Source: Magnetospirillum sulfuroxidans
Lineage (GTDB): Bacteria > Pseudomonadota > Alphaproteobacteria > Rhodospirillales > Magnetospirillaceae
DNA: 64,000 nucleotides
Assembly (NCBI RefSeq): GCF_018224925.1
Contig: NZ_JAGTUF010000003.1
Coordinates: 186,001 to 250,000, forward strand
Direction of reading: 5' to 3'
In this document: piece by piece, positions 18,459 through 60,983 of the stretch
Layout: each line of letters starts with the position of its first letter
Position numbering within the stretch: the stretch's first letter is position 1
The notes under the pieces: model-generated
What the model was told of the DNA's origin: nothing
Databases searched by the model: none
What the model saw: only the letters and a program-made list of their open reading frames with translations
Program-made: the position numbers and the translations under genes

Positions 18459-19310
18459 TTACAGATCGACCAGCTCGACCATCGGGGCGTCGCCAAGACC
18501 GGGGAAAAAACGGCCGGCGCTGGCGGAAAAGCGGCTGGCGGCATCGGTGGTGAACAAGTCGATGCGGCCCGCGCCCGTCGCCAGCAAACCTTGTTGGGTC
18601 AACATGGCGGCGGCTCGTTCGGCCACGGCTTCGGCGCAATCGACAAGAACCGGGGCTGGTCCCAAGACCTTGCGCAGCGATGCATGCAGCAAGGGAAAAT
18701 GGGTACAGCCCAAAACAAGGCAATCAGCGGCGGTGGCGCCTTCGAAATACGCGCCCAGATATTGGCGGATCATGGCTTCGGCGATCGGGCCTTCTGTCAG
18801 CCCTTCTTCGACCAGGGCGACAAACAGCGGGCAGGGTACCGGGTGGATTTCCGCCTGCGGGCGGTGGGCGGTGATGGCGCGGTCAAAGGCGCCGGAGCGG
18901 CAGGTGCCTTCGGTGGCGGCAACGACGATGCGGCCGCGCGGGGATAGGGCGGCGGCCTGTTCCGCCCCGGAATCGATAACCCCCAGAACCAGCAGATCGG
19001 GGTAATGCTGCGCCAGGGCGGCGGCGGCGTGGGCCGAGGCGGTGTTGCAGGCCAGCACCATCATTTTGATGTTGCTGGTCATGAAAAACTTGGCGGCCCT
19101 GAGGGCATATTGAATAATCGTCTGCGGGGCCTTGGTGCCATAGGGCAGGCGCGCCACATCACCAAGGTAAAGCATGCTCTCGGCGGGAAGGCGTCGGCGA
19201 AGAGCCGCGGCGACGGTCAGACCGCCAACACCGGAATCGAACACGCCAATAGGGCGGTTGCGTCCAATGATATCTAAGGTATTCACCGGAGTATCTCTGA
19301 GATTATCCAC
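18459..19310 (-). CDS. murI: Glutamate racemase
   Basis: Makes D-glutamate for peptidoglycan from L-glutamate. The family start is seen in RPIGVFDSGVGGLTVA; the two catalytic cysteines are in MVLACNTASAHA and LVLGCTHFPLLH, each with the usual Thr next to it. LYLGDVARLPYGTK is the conserved substrate-binding loop. I place the start at GTG 19310, with AAGG upstream, giving 283 residues. GTG 19286 would shorten it by eight, and ATG 19352 would add a segment with poor codon use. A small inverted repeat (ACCTGT/ACAGGT, 19326-19342) sits just upstream and may be regulatory. Confidence 0.94.
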   Translation of the reverse strand: MDNLRDTPVNTLDIIGRNRPIGVFDSGVGGLTVAAALRRRLPAESMLYLGDVARLPYGTKAPQTIIQYALRAAKFFMTSNIKMMVLACNTASAHAAAALAQHYPDLLVLGVIDSGAEQAAALSPRGRIVVAATEGTCRSGAFDRAITAHRPQAEIHPVPCPLFVALVEEGLTEGPIAEAMIRQYLGAYFEGATAADCLVLGCTHFPLLHASLRKVLGPAPVLVDCAEAVAERAAAMLTQQGLLATGAGRIDLFTTDAASRFSASAGRFFPGLGDAPMVELVDL

Positions 19311-19392
19311 AATTAAGACCTTATTACCTGTTGAGCACAGGTTCCATTTCAAAAGTATATGCCGTTATTTTCAGGCGCGGATTATCGAACCC

Positions 19393-19557: not shown

Positions 19558-20343
19558 ATGTCTTGGTCCCTGGCGCGCAAGGTCTCGGCCGCGTTAATCG
19601 CCATCTTGGTGTCCACCATGATGGTGATGTCCCTTTTTGGCTTTTTCAAGTTCGAGGAGGTGATGTCCTCGCTGGTGCGCTCGCGCTATAGCTTTGTCGC
19701 CTTCACCATCAAGAAGAAGGTTGAAGATAGCCTCAACCTTGGTTTCGCCTTGCGCCAATTGCGTCAGGTGCAAGAGACCATCGAATTGGAAAAGGCGCGT
19801 GACGAGCAGATTCAGGGAATCGAGATTTACGACGCCCGTGGCGAGATTTTGTTCAACAGTGATCGCGGCCGCATCGGCGCGTCGGTTCCGGAAACCTGGC
19901 TTGATCCGCTGACGGCGACTTCGTCGCAGCCTTTCGCCTTGATGGATGAGGATTCCAACGTCGTCGGTCTGCCGCTGGTCAATAATCTGGGCAAGGTGGA
20001 AGGCGCGGTGGTCCTGCTTTATCCTTCGGGCTATGTCGAGCGCGAATTGGGGGCGATGCTGGGGCGGCTGGCGCTTGAGATTGGCGGTTTGGTTGTTGGC
20101 TTCAGTCTGTTGACCTTGGTGGTGGCCAGTCTTGCCCTCAGGCCGGTGCGGCGACGTTTGGCGGCGATGGAGGCGGGCTTGGATCGGGCCTTGATGAAGG
20201 ATGGCGACGTGGCGATCGCCGGTCTTGGCGATCTGGGTGAGTTCGATGGTCAATTCGATGAATTCGTCGGCAAAACCCGCGAAGCGATTGAACATATCAA
20301 GACATCGACGGACGAAGTCGAACGCCTTGATCGGCTGGCGTGA
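19558..20343 (+). CDS. Membrane sensor-like protein without an output domain
   Basis: First gene of the operon, 261 residues. One membrane helix (about 12-30), a periplasmic domain of about 140 residues, a second helix (about 173-195) and a short cytoplasmic region with HAMP-like character (LRPVRRRLAAMEAGL then LGEFDGQFDEFVGKTREA). The periplasmic part has Cache-like strands (GIEIYDARGEILFNSDRG, VVGLPLVNNLGKVEGAVV). No kinase, cyclase or methyl-accepting domain follows, so it must work through a partner. The next gene overlaps or abuts it (stop 20341-20343) and repeats the same sensor architecture, suggesting hetero-oligomeric sensing. The fold is inferred; the topology is read from hydrophobicity. 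Confidence 0.8.
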   Translation: MSWSLARKVSAALIAILVSTMMVMSLFGFFKFEEVMSSLVRSRYSFVAFTIKKKVEDSLNLGFALRQLRQVQETIELEKARDEQIQGIEIYDARGEILFNSDRGRIGASVPETWLDPLTATSSQPFALMDEDSNVVGLPLVNNLGKVEGAVVLLYPSGYVERELGAMLGRLALEIGGLVVGFSLLTLVVASLALRPVRRRLAAMEAGLDRALMKDGDVAIAGLGDLGEFDGQFDEFVGKTREAIEHIKTSTDEVERLDRLA

Positions 20344-20351
20344 GGGGCGAC

Positions 20352-22451
20352 ATGCGTCTGGATAGTTCTCGCTCATTGTTGCTGCGATTGCTGATGCTGG
20401 CGGTGCTGGTGCTGGTGCCGCCCATGGCCATCGCGTCATTGCGCGCCCTTGATCGCTTTGAAGAGGGCTTGAGCCCGGAAATGGATCGCAAGGCCGCCGC
20501 CATCGGTCGCGATCTGCTGGCCCAGGTGGATCGCGCCGTCTCGTATGGCATTCCCATCGACAAGCTGGTCGGGGTCGATGAGTTCTTTACCACTCTGCTG
20601 AACGGCAATCCGGAAATTCGCTATTTGGGTCTGACCACGGCCAGCGGCGATATCTTGTTCCTGAGTGGAGCCTTGTCCGATCAATTGGCGGGACAATACC
20701 GTGCGCTGCACCTGACCGAGGCTGATATGACCGGCCGCAAAACCGATATCGGCGCGTTTGTCGATCTGGCGTTGCCCGTGCGCGGTCGCGACGGTCTGGT
20801 CGGGCAGGTTCACGTGGGCTTTGATCGCGGCTATATCGCCGCGCAATTGTTTGGCATCTTTTATGATATTGCCGTGGTGCTGGGCACCTCGCTGATCATC
20901 GCGTTCGAAATTTTGCTGTTTGTCGTTGTGTTCAATATCTCCGGGCCGATGAAGCTGGTCGCCGAAGTGGTCCATCAGGCGCGGCGCGGCGATTTTACCC
21001 GGGTGCCCGGAATCACCTCCGCCGACGAGGTCGGCCATTTTGTCCGCGCCTTCAATGGCGCCGTGCGGCAGGTGGACAACGCCTATCGTGGCCTGATGGC
21101 CTATATCGACGAAGTGCGGACCGGGCATTTCGACCGCAACGTCGCCGAAAAAGTGGGGGAAGTCGCCGACCGCGTGCGCTTCTTGTTCCGCTTCAATCCC
21201 TCGGGGGCTCCGCAGGTCCTGCGTGAGAAATTGTCGTCCGACGTTCGCTTGCCGCTGTTCTTGTTCGTCTTCGCCGAAGAAATCAGCCGTTCGTTCTTGC
21301 CGCTTTATGCCCAGGCGCTGCCGGCGCAGGTGGCCGGACTTTCGCCGGAACTGATGACCGCCTTGCCCATCGCCGTGTTCATGGCCGGGATCGCCCTTGG
21401 CTCGCTGTGGGCGGGGGCGGTGACCGAACGTCTGGGCAGCCGCAAGGTGTTCCAGTTCGGTTTGTTCCCGGCGGTTCTGGGCTGCGTCATGAGCGGCCTG
21501 TCCCATGGCGTTATCGAGCTTAGTCTGTGGCGCGGCATTGCCGGCCTGGGCTACGCCCTGGTGACGGTGGCGTGCCAAAGTTACATCTCAAAGACCACCT
21601 CCGACAGCAACCGGGCCACCGGCTTGGGCGGCTATGTCGGCGCCGTGTTGACGGCGGCCATTTGCGGCACCGCCGCCGGGGGGGTGTTGGCTGATCGCAT
21701 TGGCTATGCTCCGTCCTTCTTCGTTTCCACGGCCCTGATTCTGGTGTCGGGTTGGCTGCTTAGCCAGTTGCTGTCCATGGCGGAAATACCTCAATCCGTG
21801 GTCATGGCCGAAGAACGGCACGGCACCCATTTGCTGCGTATTTTCTCTAATTGGCGGTTTTCCATCCTGGTGCTGTTCGCGGCGATCCCCGCCAAGATGG
21901 CCTTGACCGGCTATTTCTTTTTCCTGGTGCCGCTGTCGTTGTGGGATTCGGGCCATTCGCTGCCCGAGATCGCACGGGTCATGGTGCTTTATCCCGTGGT
22001 CATGCTGGCGGTGTCGTCGTTATCGACCCGGCTGGCCGATCAGATGGGCTGGCGTATCGGCCAGGTGGCCTTGGGCGGCTTGGTTGGCGGGGCGGGGATT
22101 TTGGCGGCTTTGGCTTTTGACGGCACCTTGCCGCTGGTGATCGGGATCGTCGGCCTGGGGATTTCGCATGGGATGTCGGCGTCGCCGCAACTGGCCTCGA
22201 TTCCCGATATCTGCTGGATTGAATGTCAACGTCACGGCCGCACCCAGGTTCTGGCGCTGTTGCGGACGCTGGAACGGGTCGGGTCATTTGTTGGCCCGTT
22301 GCTGGCGGCGGTTTTTCTCCAAATGTGGGGTGGCCGTGGGGCCATTATCGGCCTGGGCGCGGTGGTGTTGGTGATGGCGATGGTCTTCGCCATGGTCGCC
22401 GGGGCCTATGGCAACGGCCCCCATCTGGAAACCGAGGAGGACGCGCCATGA
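20352..22451 (+). CDS. Sensor-HAMP-MFS transporter fusion protein
   Basis: 699 residues joining two normally separate architectures. Residue numbers below count from the in-frame GTG 20340. Part one: a membrane helix (about 15-35), a Cache-like periplasmic domain with YLGLTTASGDILFLSG, a second helix (about 175-203) and a HAMP domain (NISGPMKLVAEVVHQARRGD, then SADEVGHFVRAF). Part two, from about residue 300: a major-facilitator domain of about 12 helices with the loop motif GAVTERLGSRKVFQFG and its second-half counterpart SSLSTRLADQMGWRIG. I start at ATG 20352, with AGGGG 4 bases before it; the GTG would overlap the upstream stop. The stop overlaps the next ATG (ATGA). Either a transporter gated by a periplasmic signal, or a receptor using the MFS fold as sensor; neither can be decided from sequence. 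Confidence 0.88.
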   Translation: MRLDSSRSLLLRLLMLAVLVLVPPMAIASLRALDRFEEGLSPEMDRKAAAIGRDLLAQVDRAVSYGIPIDKLVGVDEFFTTLLNGNPEIRYLGLTTASGDILFLSGALSDQLAGQYRALHLTEADMTGRKTDIGAFVDLALPVRGRDGLVGQVHVGFDRGYIAAQLFGIFYDIAVVLGTSLIIAFEILLFVVVFNISGPMKLVAEVVHQARRGDFTRVPGITSADEVGHFVRAFNGAVRQVDNAYRGLMAYIDEVRTGHFDRNVAEKVGEVADRVRFLFRFNPSGAPQVLREKLSSDVRLPLFLFVFAEEISRSFLPLYAQALPAQVAGLSPELMTALPIAVFMAGIALGSLWAGAVTERLGSRKVFQFGLFPAVLGCVMSGLSHGVIELSLWRGIAGLGYALVTVACQSYISKTTSDSNRATGLGGYVGAVLTAAICGTAAGGVLADRIGYAPSFFVSTALILVSGWLLSQLLSMAEIPQSVVMAEERHGTHLLRIFSNWRFSILVLFAAIPAKMALTGYFFFLVPLSLWDSGHSLPEIARVMVLYPVVMLAVSSLSTRLADQMGWRIGQVALGGLVGGAGILAALAFDGTLPLVIGIVGLGISHGMSASPQLASIPDICWIECQRHGRTQVLALLRTLERVGSFVGPLLAAVFLQMWGGRGAIIGLGAVVLVMAMVFAMVAGAYGNGPHLETEEDAP

Positions 22452-23467
22452 TCGGTCGGCTGTTCTTTGGCGTCGTCACGGCGGTATTGCTGATGAGCGG
22501 ACCCGTCGCGGCCGAGCCGGCGGCGAAGCCCTATCGGATCTACATGGCGCTGTGGCGCGGTTGGGAAGACGCCGCCCAGGGCTTCAAGGATTACTTCACC
22601 AACCAGAATATTCCGGTTGAGCTGATTATCCGCGATGCCGGCCAGGACCGTTCGAAATTGCCGGAATTCGTGGCCGAGGCCAAGCAATTGGGCGTCGATC
22701 TGGTGTTCACCTGGGGGACGACGGTGACGGTGGACATGCTGGGGACCTATGACACGGTCGATCCGGCCAAGCACATCACCGATATCCCGGCGGTGTTCGC
22801 CATCGTTTCGCAGCCGGTGGGGGCCAAGGTCGTCCCCAATCTGGCGTCGTCGGGGCGCAATATCGCCGGCACCAGCTATCTGGTGCCCATGGATACCCAG
22901 ATCAACCTGCTGCAATCCTATCGGTCGGTGCGCAAATTGGGCATGGTCTACAATCCGCTGGAAAAGAACTCGCTGGTCGCCGCCGACGAATTGCGCGATT
23001 TGGGCAAGCGTGATGGTTATGATTTGGTGGTGGCGCCGGTAGAGGTGGTGGACGGCAAGCCGGTGGTGGAAAGCATCGCCAGTAAGGTTCGTGACCTCAA
23101 GGCCGCCGGGGTGGATTTCCTTTATATTCCCCCCGACACTTTCTTGAACATCAATCGCGATGTGTTGACCTCGGCGGCGCTGGCCGAAAAGATTCCCAGC
23201 TTCGCCGCCGCCGAAAACCCGGTGTTGTCGTCCAAGGCCATGCTGGGCGGTGTTTATCGCTATTACACCGTCGGCCAACTGACGGCCTATAAAGCCGAAC
23301 AGATTTTGGTCCACAAAATCGCTCCGGCGGATTTGCCGGTCGATCCGCCCAAGCGCCTGTCCATCATCATCAACATGCCGGTGGTGCGGGCCTTGGAAGT
23401 CTATCCGCCCATGAGCCTGCTCAGCTTGGCGGAAGTGGTCGATAGCGGCGTCGAGGTGCGACCATGA
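22448..23467 (+). CDS. ABC-transporter-type substrate-binding protein (PF04392-like)
   Basis: Periplasmic binding protein of 339 residues with a signal peptide (MIGRLFFGVVTAVLLMSGPV, cleaved near AAEPA). The two-lobed type I fold shows as repeated beta-alpha units: YRIYMALWRGWEDAAQGF, VDLVFTWGTTVTVDML, IPAVFAIVSQPVGAKV, NIAGTSYLVPMDTQINLL, KLGMVYNPLEKNSLVAA and DFLYIPPDTFLNINRDVL. These fit the DUF534/TrpX-like family. That family normally has an ABC permease and ATPase next door; here there are none. The gene sits in overlapping order between the sensor-MFS fusion and a formyltransferase. GAGGAGG lies 8 bases before ATG 22448. I infer that it delivers ligand to one of the membrane sensors in the operon. 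Confidence 0.9.
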   Translation: MIGRLFFGVVTAVLLMSGPVAAEPAAKPYRIYMALWRGWEDAAQGFKDYFTNQNIPVELIIRDAGQDRSKLPEFVAEAKQLGVDLVFTWGTTVTVDMLGTYDTVDPAKHITDIPAVFAIVSQPVGAKVVPNLASSGRNIAGTSYLVPMDTQINLLQSYRSVRKLGMVYNPLEKNSLVAADELRDLGKRDGYDLVVAPVEVVDGKPVVESIASKVRDLKAAGVDFLYIPPDTFLNINRDVLTSAALAEKIPSFAAAENPVLSSKAMLGGVYRYYTVGQLTAYKAEQILVHKIAPADLPVDPPKRLSIIINMPVVRALEVYPPMSLLSLAEVVDSGVEVRP

Positions 23468-24420
23468 GCAAGGAAGCCATGCCGTTGAGGGTTGTTATTT
23501 GCACCAAGCGTGATTTGGCCGGCGCCTTGATTCTCAATCAGATGTTGCCGCGTCTTGCCGGTGACACGGTGATGGTGCTGCTGTCGGACAAGACGCGGGC
23601 AGTGGAAAATGCCGTGCCGGAATTGGCCGAGATGAAGTTTCTTGAGCGCGATCTGCCCATCGACACGTTGTTTCCGCTGATCGACCGCGACCATGGCGAT
23701 GACGCCGCTTTGGCCACCTTCGCAGGCTTGGCGCGCCGATATGGCGTCACCATCCAGGTGGTCGAGGACATCAATGGGGCCGAGGGCGAGTCCCTGTTGC
23801 GTGGATTTTCCCCTGACGTGTTGCTGTCGGCGCGGTTCTCCTTGATCTTCCGCCGCAACGTCTTCGACATCCCCCGCTTCGGCACCTATAACGTGCATCC
23901 TGGGGCGTTGCCCCGCTATGCCGGCTTGTTCGCGCCGTTCCGCTGCATGCTTGACGGCGGCGACGCCATCGGCTGCACCCTGCATCGGGTCGATGACGGT
24001 ATCGACACCGGCCCGGTGGTGGGCATTGGCTGGTTGCCGGTCAAGCCGGAGCGGTCATTGCTGTGGCACGTGCTCAACACCTACCAGGCGGGGCTGGATC
24101 TCTTTTTCACCATGCTGAATGGTTTGCGCCACGGGGTGGTGCCGCGGCATTTGGAACAAGATCGCAGCCAACGGGTCTATGGCTCGCTGCCGGGGCGCGA
24201 AGCCTTTGACGCTTTCCGCGCCAAGGGGCTGCGATTGTTCGATCCCCAAGATTACAAAGAGATCCTGCGCGGCTTTGTGCCGACGGACGGAACGGTGTTG
24301 GAACATGTCATCGCCGGAGCGGCGTTGGAACACGATATCGCCGGAGCGGCGTCGGAACACGATATCGCCGGAGCGGCGGTTGAAAAGGGGGAAGCGTCAT
24401 GCTGCTGCGCACACGCGTAA
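23464..24420 (+). CDS. Formyltransferase-family enzyme with a C-terminal repeat tail
   Basis: 318 residues with the catalytic core of the methionyl-tRNA or sugar formyltransferase fold. The Asn-x-His of the catalytic triad is in YNVHPGALPRYAGL (Asn143, His145) and the catalytic Asp is in DDGIDTGPV (Asp181). The N-terminal region (LRVVICTKRDLAGALIL) is Rossmann-like. A true Fmt would carry a C-terminal tRNA-binding domain; this protein instead has about 100 unrelated residues ending in three tandem 9-residue repeats (xEHxIAGAA) and CCCAHA. It more likely formylates an amino-sugar, lipid or small amine using 10-formyltetrahydrofolate. ATGA overlap with the binding-protein gene, and a 22-base overlap with the next gene. 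Confidence 0.88.
   Translation: MSKEAMPLRVVICTKRDLAGALILNQMLPRLAGDTVMVLLSDKTRAVENAVPELAEMKFLERDLPIDTLFPLIDRDHGDDAALATFAGLARRYGVTIQVVEDINGAEGESLLRGFSPDVLLSARFSLIFRRNVFDIPRFGTYNVHPGALPRYAGLFAPFRCMLDGGDAIGCTLHRVDDGIDTGPVVGIGWLPVKPERSLLWHVLNTYQAGLDLFFTMLNGLRHGVVPRHLEQDRSQRVYGSLPGREAFDAFRAKGLRLFDPQDYKEILRGFVPTDGTVLEHVIAGAALEHDIAGAASEHDIAGAAVEKGEASCCCAHA
24298..24378 (+). repeat. Three tandem 27-bp repeats inside the formyltransferase gene
   Basis: Units at 24298-24324, 24325-24351 and 24352-24378, each coding for (L/S)EH(V/D)IAGAA. Units 2 and 3 differ by one base; unit 1 differs at a few positions. They stop just before the ribosome binding site of the next gene. The near-identity points to recent expansion. 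Confidence 0.95.
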
Positions 24421-27365
24421 CGCTGATCGTTTCCATCACCTATTCGCTGTTGGTCGGAGGCTTGACCTTCGCCGGCCTGAAAAGCGAGGAATTGGCCGAT
24501 GAACGCTATGCCCAGGCAACGCTGAACGGCCAGGAAATCTTTTGGCGCAAGCTGGTGGAAAACACCGTGCAGCGCCTGGAAACCGATGCTCGGGCCATTG
24601 CCGCCGATCAAGGGATCGTGACGGCGGTGGACCGGCATGATCCGGCCCAGACATTGGTCCATGTCGGCCCGCAGGCCGAGGCCATGAAGGCGCGCGGGAC
24701 CATCAGTCGCCTGGAAGTGTTGGACCGCGACGGCGAGCTTTTGTACAGCTCACGCGGGTCGTTGCTGGATCCGCCGATTTTGGATGCCGGCACCATTCGG
24801 GCGATCGTCGATGGCAAGCGGCCGGTGCGGGGGGTGTTGCAAGATGCCTCGCGCACCTTTACCGCCACCTTGGCCTTTCCGCTCCAGGGCAAAGACGACG
24901 TGGTCGGGATCGCCGTGCTGGCCGCCGACATGCAGCCGCCCTTATCCGAGTTCAAGGCCTCGACCGGCTCCGATATTTTCCTGGTCGATCGCAACGGCCA
25001 ACTGGCTCAGGGCACCAGCGAGGGCCTGTGGTCGGTGTTCAACGGCAAGATCACCGTGCGCAAAAGCCGCTTGCTGACCTGGCAGGACGGCGAGAAGTTC
25101 TATTCCGTCGTCGTGCTGCCGGTGCAAGATGGTTTCAACCGGGTCATCGGCGCCTTGGTCACCGCCCGCGACGTTTCGGCAACCCAGGCGCGCCAACGCT
25201 TGATCCGGCTGGTCTCCATCGGCGCGGTGGTCGGCTTCCTGGCGCTGGTCCTGGGCATTTTCTATGTCTATCTGCGCCGTTCGTTCCATCCGCTGGACGA
25301 AGCCATCGCCGTGTTGAATGCCTTGTCACGCGGCGATACCTCGGTGACGCTGGAAGTGCGTAACGACAAGGACGAAATCGGCCGCATCGCCGGGACCGTC
25401 GGCGTGTTCCGCGAAAACACCGTCAAGCTGGACCTGTTGCAGCAGCGGCGTGAGCGTCAGCGCCGCCGTCAGGAATTGTTCATCCGTCTGCAAATGCTGA
25501 AATTGTCGGAAATGCTGGAGGAAGAGGCCCGTGCCGCCATCCTCGCCGACATGAAGCAGATTGAGGCGATGGCCGAAAGAAAGCCGGGCGAAGACGAAGC
25601 CGCCGATAGCGGCAAGGGCGAATTGGAAGTGTTGGGCGTGGCCTTTCAGACCATGTCGGACCGCATCCGCGAACAGCATCTGTCTTTGGAAAAACTGATC
25701 GCCGAACGCACCCGCGAGGCGGAAGTCCTGCGGGAGGCTTTGCGCACCCGCGACCAGTTGAACGCGCTGCGTCAGGAATTGGATTTCGCCCGCGAACTGC
25801 AATTGTCGTCGCTGCCGCAGGTGTTTCCGCCCTTCCCCGAGCGCGACGAGTTCCAAATTCACGCCGCCATGGTTCCGGCCAAGGAAGTCGGGGGCGATTT
25901 CTACGACTTCTTCCTGCTCGATCATCATCACCTGGGCATCGTCATCGGTGACGCCTCGGGCAAGGGGGTGCCGGCGGCCATGTTCATCGCCATTGCCCGC
26001 TCGCTGATCAAGGCGGTGGCGCCGTTGTCACGTTCGCCCGGTGAATGCCTGGCCTTCGTCAACACCATGTTGTCGGCCGATAACCCGCAGACCTTGTTCG
26101 CCACCTGTTTTTATGCGGTCGTCGATACCCGCTCGGGCGAGGTGGCCTTTTGCAACGCCGGCCACCCGCCACCGTTGATCCTGCGCCAAGGCCGTGATGT
26201 CGAGGCGATTCGCGATGTTTCCGGCGTCGCTTTGGGGGTGCTGGAAGATCTGGAATACGATACCGGCATGTTCGTCATCGCGCCGGGCGACACCATTTTG
26301 CTGTACACCGATGGCGTCACCGAAGCCCAAGATGTCGGCGAGGTTCTTTACGATGAACCGCGTCTGATCCGAACCCTGGGCGGCTTGGGGACGATTCATC
26401 CGCAACAGATCATCGACACCGTTCAGCATTCGGTCGAGGCCTTTGTCGGCGACGCCCCGCAATTCGATGACATCACCATGCTGTCATTGCGCTTTGACCG
26501 CATCAGCGCCAGCGATTCCGCCGCGGAATCGCCACAGCGCCGGCTCATGTTGACAGGGTTCCAAGGCAGCGGCGGTGAGCCCGAATCCGCCTCCGCCCCT
26601 CGCGTCGAGCCCCCCGCACAGCAAAATACGCCGCCAGCACCGCCCGCCGCGCCGCCGCTGTCCGTTACCGCCGTCAAGACGGTGAAGCCGGTTGCGGCCA
26701 AGGCATCGGGGGCGGTTCGGTTGGTCAATCGACCGAAGGTGGTGGTGCGGCCGGCCCCGCCGGTCCAAGCGCCGGAACCGGAAGCAATTTCAGCCAAGCC
26801 GCCGATCGCGGCGGTGACCTCGGTGCAAATGGCCCGGCCCTTGGCGGCCAAGGTGGTGAGCACGCCACGGGTGGTCAAGCGTCCCAAGGTGGTGTTCCAG
26901 CCCAAGCCGGCCCCGGCAATCGCGCCAGCGGCGCCGCATACCCATCTGGAACTGACCATCGCCAATGATCTGGACGAATTAGCCCGTCTGGCCGGATTGG
27001 TTGAAGACTTTGTCGAACGTCTCGGTCTATCCGAGCGGGTGGCCTTTAATCTGAACCTTTGCCTGGACGAATTGATTACGAATATCGTCTCGTATGGCTA
27101 TGACGATAGTCATCACCATGACATCCATGTGCGTTTCTCGCTGGACAACGGGCGGCTGATAACCGAAATCATCGACGACGGCAAAGAATACAACCCCTTC
27201 TCCGAAGCCCCAGAGCCCGATCTTGGTCTGAACGTGGACGACCGCCCGATCGGTGGTCTCGGTGTGTTTTTGGTGAAGGAATTCATGGACCGCACCGATT
27301 ATCGTCGGGACGGCAGCAAAAATATCGTGACGCTGGAGAAAAACGTCACCGAGCAGGAGAGTTAA
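24399..27365 (+). CDS. Cache-HAMP-SpoIIE phosphatase-HATPase fusion (partner-switch hub)
   Basis: 988-residue membrane signalling protein. Membrane helices at about 7-27 and 268-291 flank a double-Cache-like periplasmic sensor; HAMP at about 292-345; a coiled coil (LQQRRERQRRRQELF and on). The PP2C/SpoIIE phosphatase spans about 485-690, with metal-site residues in EVGGDFYDFF, IGDASGKGVPAAM and FDDITML. A proline-rich linker (about 700-845) holds two related segments ending RPKVV. The C-terminal RsbW-type kinase (about 848-985) has LCLDELITNIVSYGY, IDDGKEYNPF and GGLGVFLVKEF. So phosphatase and anti-sigma-like kinase for one STAS protein are in one chain. The STAS gene follows 4 bases after the stop. 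AAGGGGGAAG precedes ATG 24399. Confidence 0.95.
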   Translation: MLLRTRVTLIVSITYSLLVGGLTFAGLKSEELADERYAQATLNGQEIFWRKLVENTVQRLETDARAIAADQGIVTAVDRHDPAQTLVHVGPQAEAMKARGTISRLEVLDRDGELLYSSRGSLLDPPILDAGTIRAIVDGKRPVRGVLQDASRTFTATLAFPLQGKDDVVGIAVLAADMQPPLSEFKASTGSDIFLVDRNGQLAQGTSEGLWSVFNGKITVRKSRLLTWQDGEKFYSVVVLPVQDGFNRVIGALVTARDVSATQARQRLIRLVSIGAVVGFLALVLGIFYVYLRRSFHPLDEAIAVLNALSRGDTSVTLEVRNDKDEIGRIAGTVGVFRENTVKLDLLQQRRERQRRRQELFIRLQMLKLSEMLEEEARAAILADMKQIEAMAERKPGEDEAADSGKGELEVLGVAFQTMSDRIREQHLSLEKLIAERTREAEVLREALRTRDQLNALRQELDFARELQLSSLPQVFPPFPERDEFQIHAAMVPAKEVGGDFYDFFLLDHHHLGIVIGDASGKGVPAAMFIAIARSLIKAVAPLSRSPGECLAFVNTMLSADNPQTLFATCFYAVVDTRSGEVAFCNAGHPPPLILRQGRDVEAIRDVSGVALGVLEDLEYDTGMFVIAPGDTILLYTDGVTEAQDVGEVLYDEPRLIRTLGGLGTIHPQQIIDTVQHSVEAFVGDAPQFDDITMLSLRFDRISASDSAAESPQRRLMLTGFQGSGGEPESASAPRVEPPAQQNTPPAPPAAPPLSVTAVKTVKPVAAKASGAVRLVNRPKVVVRPAPPVQAPEPEAISAKPPIAAVTSVQMARPLAAKVVSTPRVVKRPKVVFQPKPAPAIAPAAPHTHLELTIANDLDELARLAGLVEDFVERLGLSERVAFNLNLCLDELITNIVSYGYDDSHHHDIHVRFSLDNGRLITEIIDDGKEYNPFSEAPEPDLGLNVDDRPIGGLGVFLVKEFMDRTDYRRDGSKNIVTLEKNVTEQES

Positions 27366-27369
27366 GGAT

Positions 27370-27696
27370 ATGGAGATTCGGGAAGAACAAGCCGAGGACG
27401 TCGTGGTTTTGGTTCCTGTTGCTCGCGTCGACAGCGCCACCGCCAAGGCTTTCGAAGGGCGGGTTCTGGCGGCCGTCAATACCGGCGCGGCCAAGATCAT
27501 CATCGACTTCGCCGAGCTCGATTATATTTCCAGCGCTGGTTTGCGCGTGGTGTTGGTGGGGGCGAAAATGACGCGGGCGCCGCGCAAATTCTCGTTGTGT
27601 GGGATGAAGCCGCATATCCGTGAAATCTTCGACGTATCCGGTTTTGCCCGCATCTTGACCATCTTGCCCGACCGCGCTGCCGCCTTGTCGGCATAG
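27370..27696 (+). CDS. STAS-domain anti-sigma factor antagonist (RsbV-like)
   Basis: 108-residue cytoplasmic partner-switch protein. The core strand-helix motif IIIDFAELDYISSAGLRVVL includes the phosphorylatable serine (Ser54 or Ser55) of RsbV/SpoIIAA proteins. Phosphorylated by an RsbW-like kinase and dephosphorylated by a PP2C phosphatase, such proteins bind or release a target. Both activities are present in the upstream protein, which ends 4 bases before this gene (AAGGA is its ribosome binding site). No sigma factor is encoded in the operon, so the downstream target is unknown and may not be a sigma factor. This is the last gene of the operon. Confidence 0.95.
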   Translation: MEIREEQAEDVVVLVPVARVDSATAKAFEGRVLAAVNTGAAKIIIDFAELDYISSAGLRVVLVGAKMTRAPRKFSLCGMKPHIREIFDVSGFARILTILPDRAAALSA

Positions 27697-58856: not shown

Positions 58857-59183
58857 TTACGCTTTCAGGCCGGCCTCGACCGTGTCGGCCAGGGCGAACA
58901 CCTTGTCGAGCCGGGCCAGTTGCAGAACCCGCATGGCCGGGGCGCTGACCGCGGCCAGGACAAAGCGGGTGCCGTTCTTGCGAGCCTGTTGATAGGCCTC
59001 GACCAGCGAGGCGATGCCGGAGGAATCGATATAGACGACGGCGGCCAGATCGACGATCACCGGCCGCCGTTCGAACATCAGCTCCATCAGGTGCTTGCGG
59101 ATGGTGGGGGAGTGTTGCAAATCCACTTCCCCGGCCAGCGCCACCACCACGGCTCCGTCTATTTCGCGGCTTTCGATCTTCAT
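58857..59183 (-). CDS. STAS-domain protein in the mla operon (RsbV-like / MlaB position)
   Basis: 108 residues. Strand-helix core PVIVDLAAVVYIDSSGIASL with the DSSG motif (Asp53, Ser54, Ser55, Gly56), the phosphorylation site of RsbV/SpoIIAA proteins. In E. coli the mla operon also contains a STAS protein, MlaB, which binds MlaF and is needed for transport. Here the STAS gene lies on the other side, between a SpoIIE/HATPase protein (ATGA overlap) and mlaE (5 bases apart). It could be both the MlaB equivalent and the target of the phosphatase/kinase. The sequence is more RsbV-like because of the serine pair; this dual role is inference. Confidence 0.92.
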   Translation of the reverse strand: MKIESREIDGAVVVALAGEVDLQHSPTIRKHLMELMFERRPVIVDLAAVVYIDSSGIASLVEAYQQARKNGTRFVLAAVSAPAMRVLQLARLDKVFALADTVEAGLKA

Positions 59184-60856
59184 AGCCCACCCATGCGCTT
59201 GATCATGCGTAACAGATTGCCTGCTCCGGGCGGCGGTGCCAAGAACTCCACGTCATCCATGACCATCCGCATGAAATGCGTGCCCAAGCCGCCGGGGCGG
59301 ATGTCGTCGAGGTCACGGGGGCACACCCTGGCCGGATCGACCGGCGCGGCGAAATCGATCAGCTGGATATCCAGGCACGCGGCGTCGCCGCGCACCTGCA
59401 CGATCAGGTCACCCTCGCCGCCGCCATAGGCGTGCCGGATGATGTTCTGACAGGCCTCGTCCACCGCCAGCACCACGTCGGGGATGACGGCGGGCGGGCA
59501 CGCCAGATGCTCCAGCGCCTGAGCGACGGCGGCGCGGATCGCCGCCAGACTGGCCGGTCGGGCCTGAAATTGCCGATAGAGCGCGGGGGTCTGGCGGGCG
59601 TCTTCGATCACCACCATGGTCAGGTCGTCTTTCAACGTCATGCCATCGTCAACGATCTGGCTGACCAGGGCGCGCAGGCGGTCAGGGGCGGGGCGGACCC
59701 GGTGCGGCATCAGCCGGCGGGCGACGCCGTCGGCGCCCAGCATGCCGTGGCTGTTGCCGGCCTCGGTCAGGCCATCGGTGAACAGGTACAGCGTGCCGCC
59801 ATTGAGATCGATGATGCTTTCCGGGCAGCCTTGGGCGAACAGCTCGGGGACGATGCCCAAGGGCGGCATACCGTCATCGATGCGTTCCTGACGGGCGCCG
59901 CAGCATAACAGCGGCGGTTCATGGCCGGCATTGGCCAAGACCACCGTGCCGGCGGCCGGGTCCAAGATGCCGGCGATCATGGTGACGAACATGCCGGCCG
60001 AACTGGTTTCGGCCAGTTCGGCGTCAATGGCTGACAGCACCGCCGCCGGGCCATCCAGGCGTTTGGCCAGGCACCGGAACAAGCTGGCGGTCTTGGCCAT
60101 CAGCAGGGCGGCGTTCATGCCCTTGCCGGAAACGTCGGCGATGGCGAAAGCCAGCTTGCCGCCGGGCAATTCGACCACGTCGAAAAAATCCCCAGACACC
60201 CCGCGCGCCGCCAGATTGATGCCGTGAATGGGAAATTCCGCCGGCCGTTCGGGGGGCAGCATGGCGCGTTGGATATCGGCGGCCAGGGCCAGTTCGCGCC
60301 GCATGACTTGTTGTTCGGCCATGGCGGCGGCTTGGCGGGCATTGATCAGAGCCAGGGCGGCGGAGGCCGCCAAGGCCTGCAACACCCGGCGGTCGGCGGA
60401 ATCGAAGCTGCCGCCGCCGATCTTGTTGAACAGCTCGATCGCCCCCAGACGTTCGTCGCGCACCGACATCGGCGCGCACAGGACCGAGCGGGTGATGAAA
60501 CCGGTCTTGCCATCGACCTGATGGGCGAAATCGGGATCATTGCCGGTATCGCGCACCAGCTCGGTGGCATTGCGGTTGACGGCGCGCCAGACGATCCCTT
60601 GACCTTTGACCAGCCGCAGGCCGGTGACGTCGGTGGGGCCGGAGCAGGCGCGGCAAACCAGATCGCCGGTTTCTGGTTCCATCAGGAAGATGGACGCGGC
60701 TTCGGCGTCCATGCGGCTGGTGATGTGGGTGATGCCGATGCGCAGGGTTTCCTCGATATCCAGCGAGCGGGCGAAATCGGCGGTCATCTCGGCGATCAGG
60801 TCCAGATCGTCGGCCAAGTTTGTCGGCAAAGCGTGCGGGAGTTCTTCGATGCGCAT
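59180..60856 (-). CDS. GAF-SpoIIE phosphatase-HATPase partner-switch protein
   Basis: Cytoplasmic regulator of 558 residues. GAF sensor at about 15-175 (DAEAASIFLMEPETGDLVC to LGAIELFNKIGGG). PP2C/SpoIIE phosphatase at about 200-405, with metal-site residues in GVSGDFFDVV, IADVSGKGMNAAL and LKDDLTMVVIE. RsbW-type kinase at about 420-555, with VVLAVDEACQNIIRHAY, then DFAAPVDPA and RPGGLGTHFMRMV. In the G1 box the usual DxG reads DFA, as in some RsbW proteins with DFG-like variants. Start ATG 60856 is used; the frame extends to 60931 with unlikely residues. First gene of the mla operon. Confidence 0.93.
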   Translation of the reverse strand: MRIEELPHALPTNLADDLDLIAEMTADFARSLDIEETLRIGITHITSRMDAEAASIFLMEPETGDLVCRACSGPTDVTGLRLVKGQGIVWRAVNRNATELVRDTGNDPDFAHQVDGKTGFITRSVLCAPMSVRDERLGAIELFNKIGGGSFDSADRRVLQALAASAALALINARQAAAMAEQQVMRRELALAADIQRAMLPPERPAEFPIHGINLAARGVSGDFFDVVELPGGKLAFAIADVSGKGMNAALLMAKTASLFRCLAKRLDGPAAVLSAIDAELAETSSAGMFVTMIAGILDPAAGTVVLANAGHEPPLLCCGARQERIDDGMPPLGIVPELFAQGCPESIIDLNGGTLYLFTDGLTEAGNSHGMLGADGVARRLMPHRVRPAPDRLRALVSQIVDDGMTLKDDLTMVVIEDARQTPALYRQFQARPASLAAIRAAVAQALEHLACPPAVIPDVVLAVDEACQNIIRHAYGGGEGDLIVQVRGDAACLDIQLIDFAAPVDPARVCPRDLDDIRPGGLGTHFMRMVMDDVEFLAPPPGAGNLLRMIKRMGGL

Positions 60857-60983
60857 GGAGCGATGATGCCCCGGAATGGCGAAGGGGTAAAATCCCTTTT
60901 CGCTACGGGGGTATAGTCGTGAAAAAAGCATGAAATTTCAGGCGGTTGTTCGGTGAAATTTTTGTTGCGGCGCGAAGGCTTCG

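Follow-up and report, generated by a model that had tools for sequence, protein, structure and literature searches.

Described systems related to the locus

Several described systems share parts with a six-gene locus of Magnetospirillum sulfuroxidans, which was analyzed within a 64,000-nucleotide stretch of the genome (assembly GCF_018224925.1, contig NZ_JAGTUF010000003.1, positions 186,001-250,000; hereafter the window, to which all coordinates refer). The genes encode a membrane sensor (S1), a second sensor fused to a major facilitator superfamily (MFS) transporter domain (S2), a periplasmic binding protein (S3), a formyltransferase (S4, FMT), a membrane hub (S5) and a STAS-only protein (S6). 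In Vibrio fischeri, SypE is a kinase-REC-phosphatase response regulator, according to the excerpts of the source used here (PMC10120452), and the unphosphorylated form of SypA is the active output, the target of which is not known (PMC8256260). Hub and S6 are like this pair, in which a single protein, having a serine kinase and a PP2C domain, targets a STAS-only partner whose Ser is conserved (PMC8256260; PMC10120452, in the same excerpts). However, the hub is a transmembrane dCache-HAMP protein with the domain order PP2C-HATPase and without a REC domain (Pfam), and it comes with S1, S2, a binding protein and an enzyme. SiaA of the Pseudomonas aeruginosa SiaABCD system is also a membrane HAMP-PP2C phosphatase, but in the sections of the paper drawn on it has no fused HATPase, and the system has no MFS transporter, binding protein or acyl-transfer enzyme (PMC7647112). 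The best NCBIfam match of the hub was the SiaA model (NF038263), with 80.6 bits over residues 402-700, far under the 700-bit cut-off. The RbaV/RbaW/RbaY partner switch of the alphaproteobacterium Rhodobacter capsulatus likewise includes a STAS protein, and no sigma factor gene is predicted in its vicinity; as presented in the part of the article consulted, it differs in its soluble REC-PP2C input, its separate RsbW and the lack of a sensor-transporter core (PMC3999984).

On the transporter side, the available portions of PMC12344293 and of a review give ABC, TRAP, TTT and the recent TAXI-GltS systems as the binding-protein-dependent transporters. TRAP, TTT and TAXI-GltS are like the locus in the genetic coupling of a periplasmic binding protein to a secondary transporter (PMC12344293, same portion), whereas the transporter here is an MFS protein, is fused to a sensor and has an efflux-like nearest fold. 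The terms 'MFS' and 'major facilitator' were absent from the text of PMC12344293, and in the review they occurred solely in a reference title. The SLC5/STAC histidine kinases (CbrA, CrbS, RpuS) also carry a transporter and a signalling domain in one polypeptide, but the transporter is SLC5 rather than MFS, the output is a histidine kinase, and no binding protein or enzyme is named in the passages used (PMC9100948). Full-text literature searches, which were judged by titles and the beginnings of abstracts and left subscription journals mostly uncovered, showed no published description of the gene set among the papers listed, in agreement with an earlier note on this DNA that knew of no such system. 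Autoinducer-2 sensing by LuxPQ is similar in that a periplasmic binding protein and a membrane sensor read a self-made small molecule, but it has no transporter fusion, a different synthase and a phosphorelay output.

Hub and STAS protein belong to a known kind; the combination of a sensor-fused MFS transporter, a binding protein and an exchangeable enzyme matches no kind found in the literature as covered above. The cassette is real and conserved, and it is apparently undescribed. Our preferred reading, held with somewhat less than even confidence, is that it forms a self-contained export-and-sense circuit with an exchangeable enzyme.

The core and its exchangeable enzymes

Relatives were collected at the GTDB family, order, class and phylum ranks of the window, each larger sample including the window's genome. 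The 97 fetched loci, which are not a random sample, comprised 35 from the family, 30 from the order sample, where 42 genomes outside the family have S2, and 32 from class and phylum. The family loci came from 34 genomes (G020 twice); G028, in which the locus is split between contigs, was not fetched, and 12 order genomes, mostly of genus g45, as well as G756 and G355 of the class and phylum samples, were left out. Open reading frames (ORFs) in these loci were labelled by profiles built from family members. All loci except L087 carried S2, which leaves 96 for the counts below, seven of them cut within 1.5 kb of S2. FMT was masked by antisense or overlapping ORFs in the automatic calling of some family loci (for example L067, L071, L077, L091 and L092) and was seen when ORFs did not compete.

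First, conservation within the family was examined. An S2 match (E <= 1e-20) was present in 35 of the 55 family genomes, with 28-35% identity in five of them, and FMT was present in 25/55. The full order S1-S2-S3-S4-S5-S6 was kept in 19 of the 35 family loci, although S1 is split over two frames in two of them (L080, L091). Among the others, one had a split FMT (L097), two were cut by the contig end inside the hub (L068, L079), six were without FMT, six were divergent (L081-L086), and one retained FMT alone at the syntenic place (L087). The 22-base overlap between FMT and hub recurred in 19 of 21 measurable family loci; L070, where S2 and FMT share one open frame (a possible frame error), was excluded from this count, and as starts were picked near the position expected from the window protein, the overlap length leans slightly to that of the window. 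The closely spaced, co-inherited unit proposed in the earlier note was thus recovered, and the genes were not scattered in relatives, their order being kept in the family; the stoichiometric production that it read from the overlaps is an assumption.

Beyond the family, the S2 profile (E <= 1e-40) matched 77/297 order, 29/289 class and 12/398 phylum genomes. In 82/96 loci S2 had a same-strand S1 match no more than 1.5 kb away. A PP2C hub was found up to 7 kb from S2 in 52/96, a HATPase in 42/96 and a STAS protein up to 9 kb away in 41/96. Because hub and STAS protein are frequent but not constant, the core was taken to be S1, S2 and the binding protein. The view that the six genes are the unit was therefore dropped, since relatives show a smaller core with an exchangeable enzyme, FMT being dispensable and interchangeable and hub and STAS protein missing near many cores. 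One S2 locus, L151, which is 80% identical to that of the window, comes from a record titled 'Stygiobacter sp.', possibly a mislabelled alphaproteobacterial bin.

An enzyme of one of several types was carried by 65/96 S2 loci, and two types occurred together in none (0/96). FMT was found in 25 loci, a GNAT protein in 21, a D-Ala-D-Ala-ligase-like ATP-grasp enzyme in 8, a GCS2 enzyme in 6 and a PanB-like enzyme in 4, while a second ATP-grasp type occurred in one locus, L211, in two copies; L181 additionally has an alanine racemase. Pfam and NCBIfam confirmed the types on examples, namely PF00551 (FMT) in L195 and L205, PF07478 (ATP-grasp) in L187 and L211, PF04107 (GCS2) in L086 and L184, and PF02548 (PanB-like) in L122 and L202. 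The GNAT call is weaker: of five proteins tested, three matched PF00583 (9e-05 to 0.004), one of them over the cut-off, and two did not. ORFs labelled 'PANX' were antisense to the PanB-like gene, had no Pfam match and were discarded as artefacts.

The distribution of FMT and GNAT was then compared across genomes. The GNAT family (E <= 1e-15) occurred in 28/297 order genomes, all S2-positive; in 27 of them the gene lay within 2.4 kb of S2, and in the 28th, a fragmented assembly, gene and S2 were on different contigs. FMT occurred in 26/297 order genomes, in 24 of which it adjoined S2 (22 fetched family loci, the window and G190, where it is on the opposite strand), with one split over two contigs (G028) and one alone (G016). 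In the class sample FMT matched 4/289 genomes: the window, L195 and L205, which lie outside the order and have it beside S2, and G739, where the match is weak and partial and S2 is absent. FMT and GNAT never occurred in one genome of the order sample, where 9.1 such genomes would be expected among 77 (P = 5e-07, a value that ignores kinship). In a quickly built MFS-domain tree, from which tips without an enzyme were left out, the enzyme label changed 6 times for 6 labels in comparison with at least 26 changes in 500 shuffles, and after thinning to 43 tips 6 times in comparison with at least 19.

Some cores were found beside or within type VI secretion genes. Pfam identified TssF, a ClpV-like AAA protein and FHA/T6SS_FHA_C in L196, VgrG and DUF6931 in L193, and VgrG and FHA in L183; L194 has a neighbouring VgrG-like protein (phmmer), and L197 was placed with these loci solely by gene lengths resembling those of L196. 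The genome of the window has one TssF gene, on another contig. These neighbours in L183, L193 and L196 would suit a locus that senses, modifies and expels, in which a toxic amino-acid-like compound is detected, formylated or acetylated and expelled by the MFS protein while the partner switch raises a response. The efflux-type nearest folds of S2 point the same way, as do the PDB matches of the GNAT profile, which were best, if weak (2.6e-04 to 0.0024), for YncA (2.6e-04) and phosphinothricin-type N-acetyltransferases. However, the GCS2 and ATP-grasp ligases and the PanB-like hydroxymethyltransferase presumably build molecules rather than detoxify them, many cores keep the sensors without a nearby enzyme of these types, and post-translational control by PP2C and STAS proteins would, to our knowledge, be unusual for resistance. 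We consider a detoxifying role unlikely.

Domain anatomy and the proposed circuit

S1 matched no Pfam family above its cut-off. Its profile aligned with the N-terminal part of S2 (hhalign probability 97.3, E = 1.9e-11, 229 columns), and the N-terminal part of the hub gave a weak match to S1 or S2 over 82-94 columns at the HAMP end. The AlphaFold models of S1 and S2 (mean predicted local distance difference test scores 71 and 68) have a common layout of a long helix, a helix, two strands, a helix, three strands, a second long helix and HAMP helices, and a Foldseek search with the S1 model returned the sensor domains of WalK (2.2e-05) and CitA (6.8e-05). The predicted fold and the profile match to S2 point to S1 being a sensor with a transmembrane (TM)-sCache-TM-HAMP arrangement. 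The data showed S1 and S2 to be variants of a single sCache-HAMP sensor, the MFS domain being on S2 alone. As HAMP domains act as dimers, an S1:S2 heteromer would be a natural arrangement. Contact among the parts is supported by natural fusions, since S1, S2 and the MFS domain form one ORF in L196 and L197, which belong to one genus, and in L211 one ORF holds the hub and a sensor of the S2 type. A second pair of S1 and an S2-like protein stands beside the hub in L084, L127, L128, L181, L195, L198, L204, L206 and L210, immediately ahead of it in several loci; the MFS part of this S2-like protein is degenerate or unrecognisable, and the two that were tested, from L204 and L128, had no Pfam match.

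S2 matched MFS_1 (1.2e-26), and its HAMP domain scored under the cut-off (19 vs 25 bits). Three Gly residues of TM5, a feature of DHA1-type antiporters, are conserved among the aligned members (G443 in 32/33, G447 in 33/33, G448 in 32/33), whereas Thr stands in place of the usual Pro in 25/33. In a Foldseek search with the S2 model, ranks 1-47 among the best 50 of 921 matches (E <= 10) were VMAT, VAChT, MdfA, NorA or entries with 'protein A' names. VMAT, VAChT, MdfA and NorA are antiporters that take substrate out of the cytoplasm.

S3 matched ABC_sub_bind (4.8e-26), and its solved relatives by sequence were 6hni (4.7e-20), 3lkv (1.5e-15) and 3lft (1.9e-12). It scored 89.9 bits against the tryptophan-binding TrpX model NF041285, below the cut-off of 390. 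Its gene and S2 form the tightest pair among relatives, frequently with 4-base overlaps; a binding protein was encoded on the same strand within 1 kb of S2 in 77/96 loci and on either strand within 3 kb in 88/96. The binding protein is genetically coupled to a secondary transporter. Such tight pairing would also fit a binding-protein-dependent MFS uptake transceptor, in which a nutrient would be captured, S2 would import it and report the flux via HAMP to the hub, and the enzyme would process it. The TAXI-GltS precedent, in which a binding protein works with another secondary transporter (PMC12344293, in the portion cited above), the sub-threshold TrpX match and the presence of a D-galactonate symporter among the best 50 of 921 fold matches also favour uptake. 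However, the nearest folds of S2 are antiporters moving substrate outward, ligase- and PanB-type enzymes would be odd for nutrient processing, and MFS is not among the binding-protein-dependent families given in what was available of PMC12344293 and a review. Uptake is in our judgement rather unlikely, if somewhat less so than detoxification. Both alternatives keep the same anatomy and differ in the ligand of the binding protein and the pump direction of S2.

The hub matched SpoIIE (8.4e-51), HATPase_c_2 (2.7e-25) and HAMP (6.1e-11), with a marginal dCache_3 match (25.0 vs a cut-off of 25.7). The metal-binding Asp residues of the PP2C domain (D500, D518, D638, D690 and D691) were invariant in all 33 aligned members, and in the ATPase domain the N-box Glu and Asn and the GGxG motif were present in 28/28 members with the domain. 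S6 matched STAS (3.3e-14) and TIGR00377 (56.5 bits vs a cut-off of 53.45), and S54 and S55 were kept in 30/30 aligned members. These sequence features show a hub that joins a predicted PP2C phosphatase with an RsbW-like ATPase, beside a STAS protein with an apparently intact phospho-acceptor Ser site. The hub is likely to have kinase activity, though this is not certain. If SypA and RbaV are a guide, the STAS protein may be active when unphosphorylated (PMC8256260; PMC3999984, in the part consulted).

S4 matched Formyl_trans_N (7.4e-15; PF00551, 55.6 bits vs a cut-off of 26.1), and N143, H145 and D181 were kept in 22/22 aligned members. These residues presumably form the Asn-His-Asp catalytic triad of Formyl_trans_N enzymes. 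Models of Fmt, PurN, ArnA and PRK06988 gave 38.6, 39.3, 45.8 and 50.3 bits, respectively, all below their cut-offs of 201.5, 150.1, 777 and 316. A conserved Cys-rich, CCCAHA-like tail of FMT was considered as a metal site and rejected, as it is an out-of-frame reading of the MLLRTRV start of the hub: the 22-base overlap encodes this conserved start in another frame, and the FMT that stands alone in L087 lacks the tail. The C-terminus of FMT (24300-24390) has repeated EHDIAGAA-like units, which were found in none of 12 aligned relatives.

In the preferred export-and-sense circuit, S4 would formylate a small, probably amino-acid-like amine, as the chemistry of the enzyme types (acyl transfer, amide ligation, hydroxymethylation) suggests, and the MFS domain of S2 would export the product, a direction suggested by its fold. 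The binding protein would catch the compound in the periplasm and dock on the S1/S2 heteromer, perhaps also on the Cache domain of the hub. HAMP domains would relay the sensor state to the hub, which would switch the phosphorylation state of the STAS protein; the free STAS protein would then act on a target. A swap of enzyme would change the chemical dialect with the chassis constant. The three membrane sensors, the binding protein and STAS phosphorylation as the likely readout stand as they were first proposed. The earlier order of events has a ligand coming in and a formylated product going out; a formylation or other acylation that makes or modifies the exported, sensed compound seems likelier. 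A wider reading, doubtful but worth stating, is that the cassette serves modular cell-cell signalling in Alpha- and some other Proteobacteria, where a fixed chassis of two sCache-HAMP sensors, the exporter fused to one of them and a binding protein would feed a PP2C/STAS switch or a type VI cluster and the exchangeable synthase would set the signal.

The export-and-sense circuit is favoured by the conserved gene order and overlaps, the homology of S1 and S2, the natural fusions and the S1 and S2-like pairs ahead of the hub. The single enzyme type per locus, the closeness of GNAT and FMT to S2, the few label changes on the MFS tree, the antiporter-like fold of S2, enzymes that presumably build molecules and the conserved catalytic and phospho-site residues speak for it as well. 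Several observations weigh against this circuit. No S2 match was found in 20 of the 55 family genomes, and many cores of S1, S2 and binding protein have no hub or STAS protein nearby. Six family loci keep everything but FMT, with no FMT elsewhere in those genomes (1e-20), and L087 keeps FMT without the sensors. In 31/96 S2 loci, some on cut contigs, no enzyme of these types was found, so the compound would not always be made by a neighbouring gene. The Gly of the hub ATPase G1 box is Ala in 19/28 members, which makes kinase activity uncertain. The S1 and S2 models were built from 7 sequences each, sequence profiles of S2 match exporters and importers alike, and the acidic residue of MFS motif A is not strictly kept. 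The fold hint on transport direction is weak, because a D-galactonate:proton symporter and URAT1 stand at ranks 48 and 50 among the best 50 of 921 matches.

Specificity is also imperfect, as G739, a genome without an S2 match, has a partial FMT-like match (7.9e-26) in a 617-aa frame, and the clustering of enzyme labels on the MFS tree is partly plain inheritance. Inheritance alone predicts such clustering, and the weak match in G739, the lone FMT of L087 and its absence from six otherwise intact loci could mean that some functions in the operon have nothing to do with each other, FMT and others having stayed merely as neighbours by descent. However, the association of enzyme and S2 outlasts changes of gene order and strand, also outside the order (L147, L195, L205), GNAT was confined to S2-bearing genomes among the 297 searched, and the fusions in L196, L197 and L211 join the parts in single proteins. 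Mere neighbourhood by descent is highly improbable.

If the export-and-sense circuit is real, a self-contained sensing system with diverse chemistry exists in several lineages of Proteobacteria, although its MFS transporter, ABC-type binding protein and SpoIIE phosphatase each have an ordinary appearance. MFS would join the transporter families tied to binding proteins, HAMP signalling would be connected to a transporter by way of a sensor heteromer, and the enzyme products would be a source of candidate signals. Even under the uptake alternative, the systematic pairing of a binding protein with a sensor-fused MFS transporter is new relative to the literature examined, as far as the sources were covered.

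Gene map and neighbouring features

Six genes at 19558-27696 had been proposed in the earlier note, and the ORF positions, all on one strand, and Pfam agreed (table). Four of the stated junctions were exact, namely overlaps of 4 bases at 22448 and 23464 and of 22 bases at 24399, and a spacing of 4 bases at 27366. However, the overlap claimed at 20340 is doubtful and may be an 8-base gap, because relatives begin at the residue encoded by ATG 20352, just upstream of which lies GAGGGG; the S2 gene probably starts there and not at GTG 20340.

Table. Genes of the locus and the gene that follows it, in window coordinates
Feature	Description	Position	Strand	Basis or remark
S1	Membrane sensor, predicted TM-sCache-TM-HAMP, without output domain, 261 aa	19558-20343	+	Hydrophobic segments, AlphaFold, Foldseek, S2 homology
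S2	sCache-HAMP sensor fused to MFS, 703 aa as annotated	20340-22451	+	Pfam, AlphaFold, Foldseek
S3	Periplasmic substrate-binding protein, PF04392 / TrpX-like, 339 aa	22448-23467	+	Pfam, PDB profile matches
S4	Formyltransferase (FMT), PF00551, 318 aa	23464-24420	+	Pfam, residue alignment
S5	Hub, dCache-HAMP-SpoIIE/PP2C-(Pro/Ala-rich linker)-HATPase_c_2, 988 aa	24399-27365	+	Pfam, alignment
S6	STAS-only protein, 108 aa, conserved YISSAGL, likely phospho-acceptor Ser55	27370-27696	+	Pfam, alignment
D1	Unknown function, 78 aa	27793-28029	+	Gap of ~97 bases after operon; 23/35 family loci

A consensus promoter scan was uninformative, with 3 sites compared with a shuffle mean of 2.7, and terminator-like sites numbered 16 compared with 10.7. 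By Pfam, none of the six genes encodes a third partner for the switch, such as a sigma factor; no search for sigma factors was made across the genome. D1 remains with FMT in L087, where the other operon genes are lost. A murI-like gene, named by eye (18459-19352, minus strand), is divergent to the operon or to the lone FMT in 29/35 family loci. A functional tie between it and the operon was considered and dropped; the adjacency was examined in the family loci alone.

A second partner switch was found in the window at 58857-60931 on the minus strand, where a 583-aa GAF-SpoIIE-HATPase_c_2 protein is followed by a 108-aa STAS protein, with an overlapping ORF that by eye resembles an MlaE-type permease. 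The whole genome of the window has 7 SpoIIE matches and 12 STAS matches.

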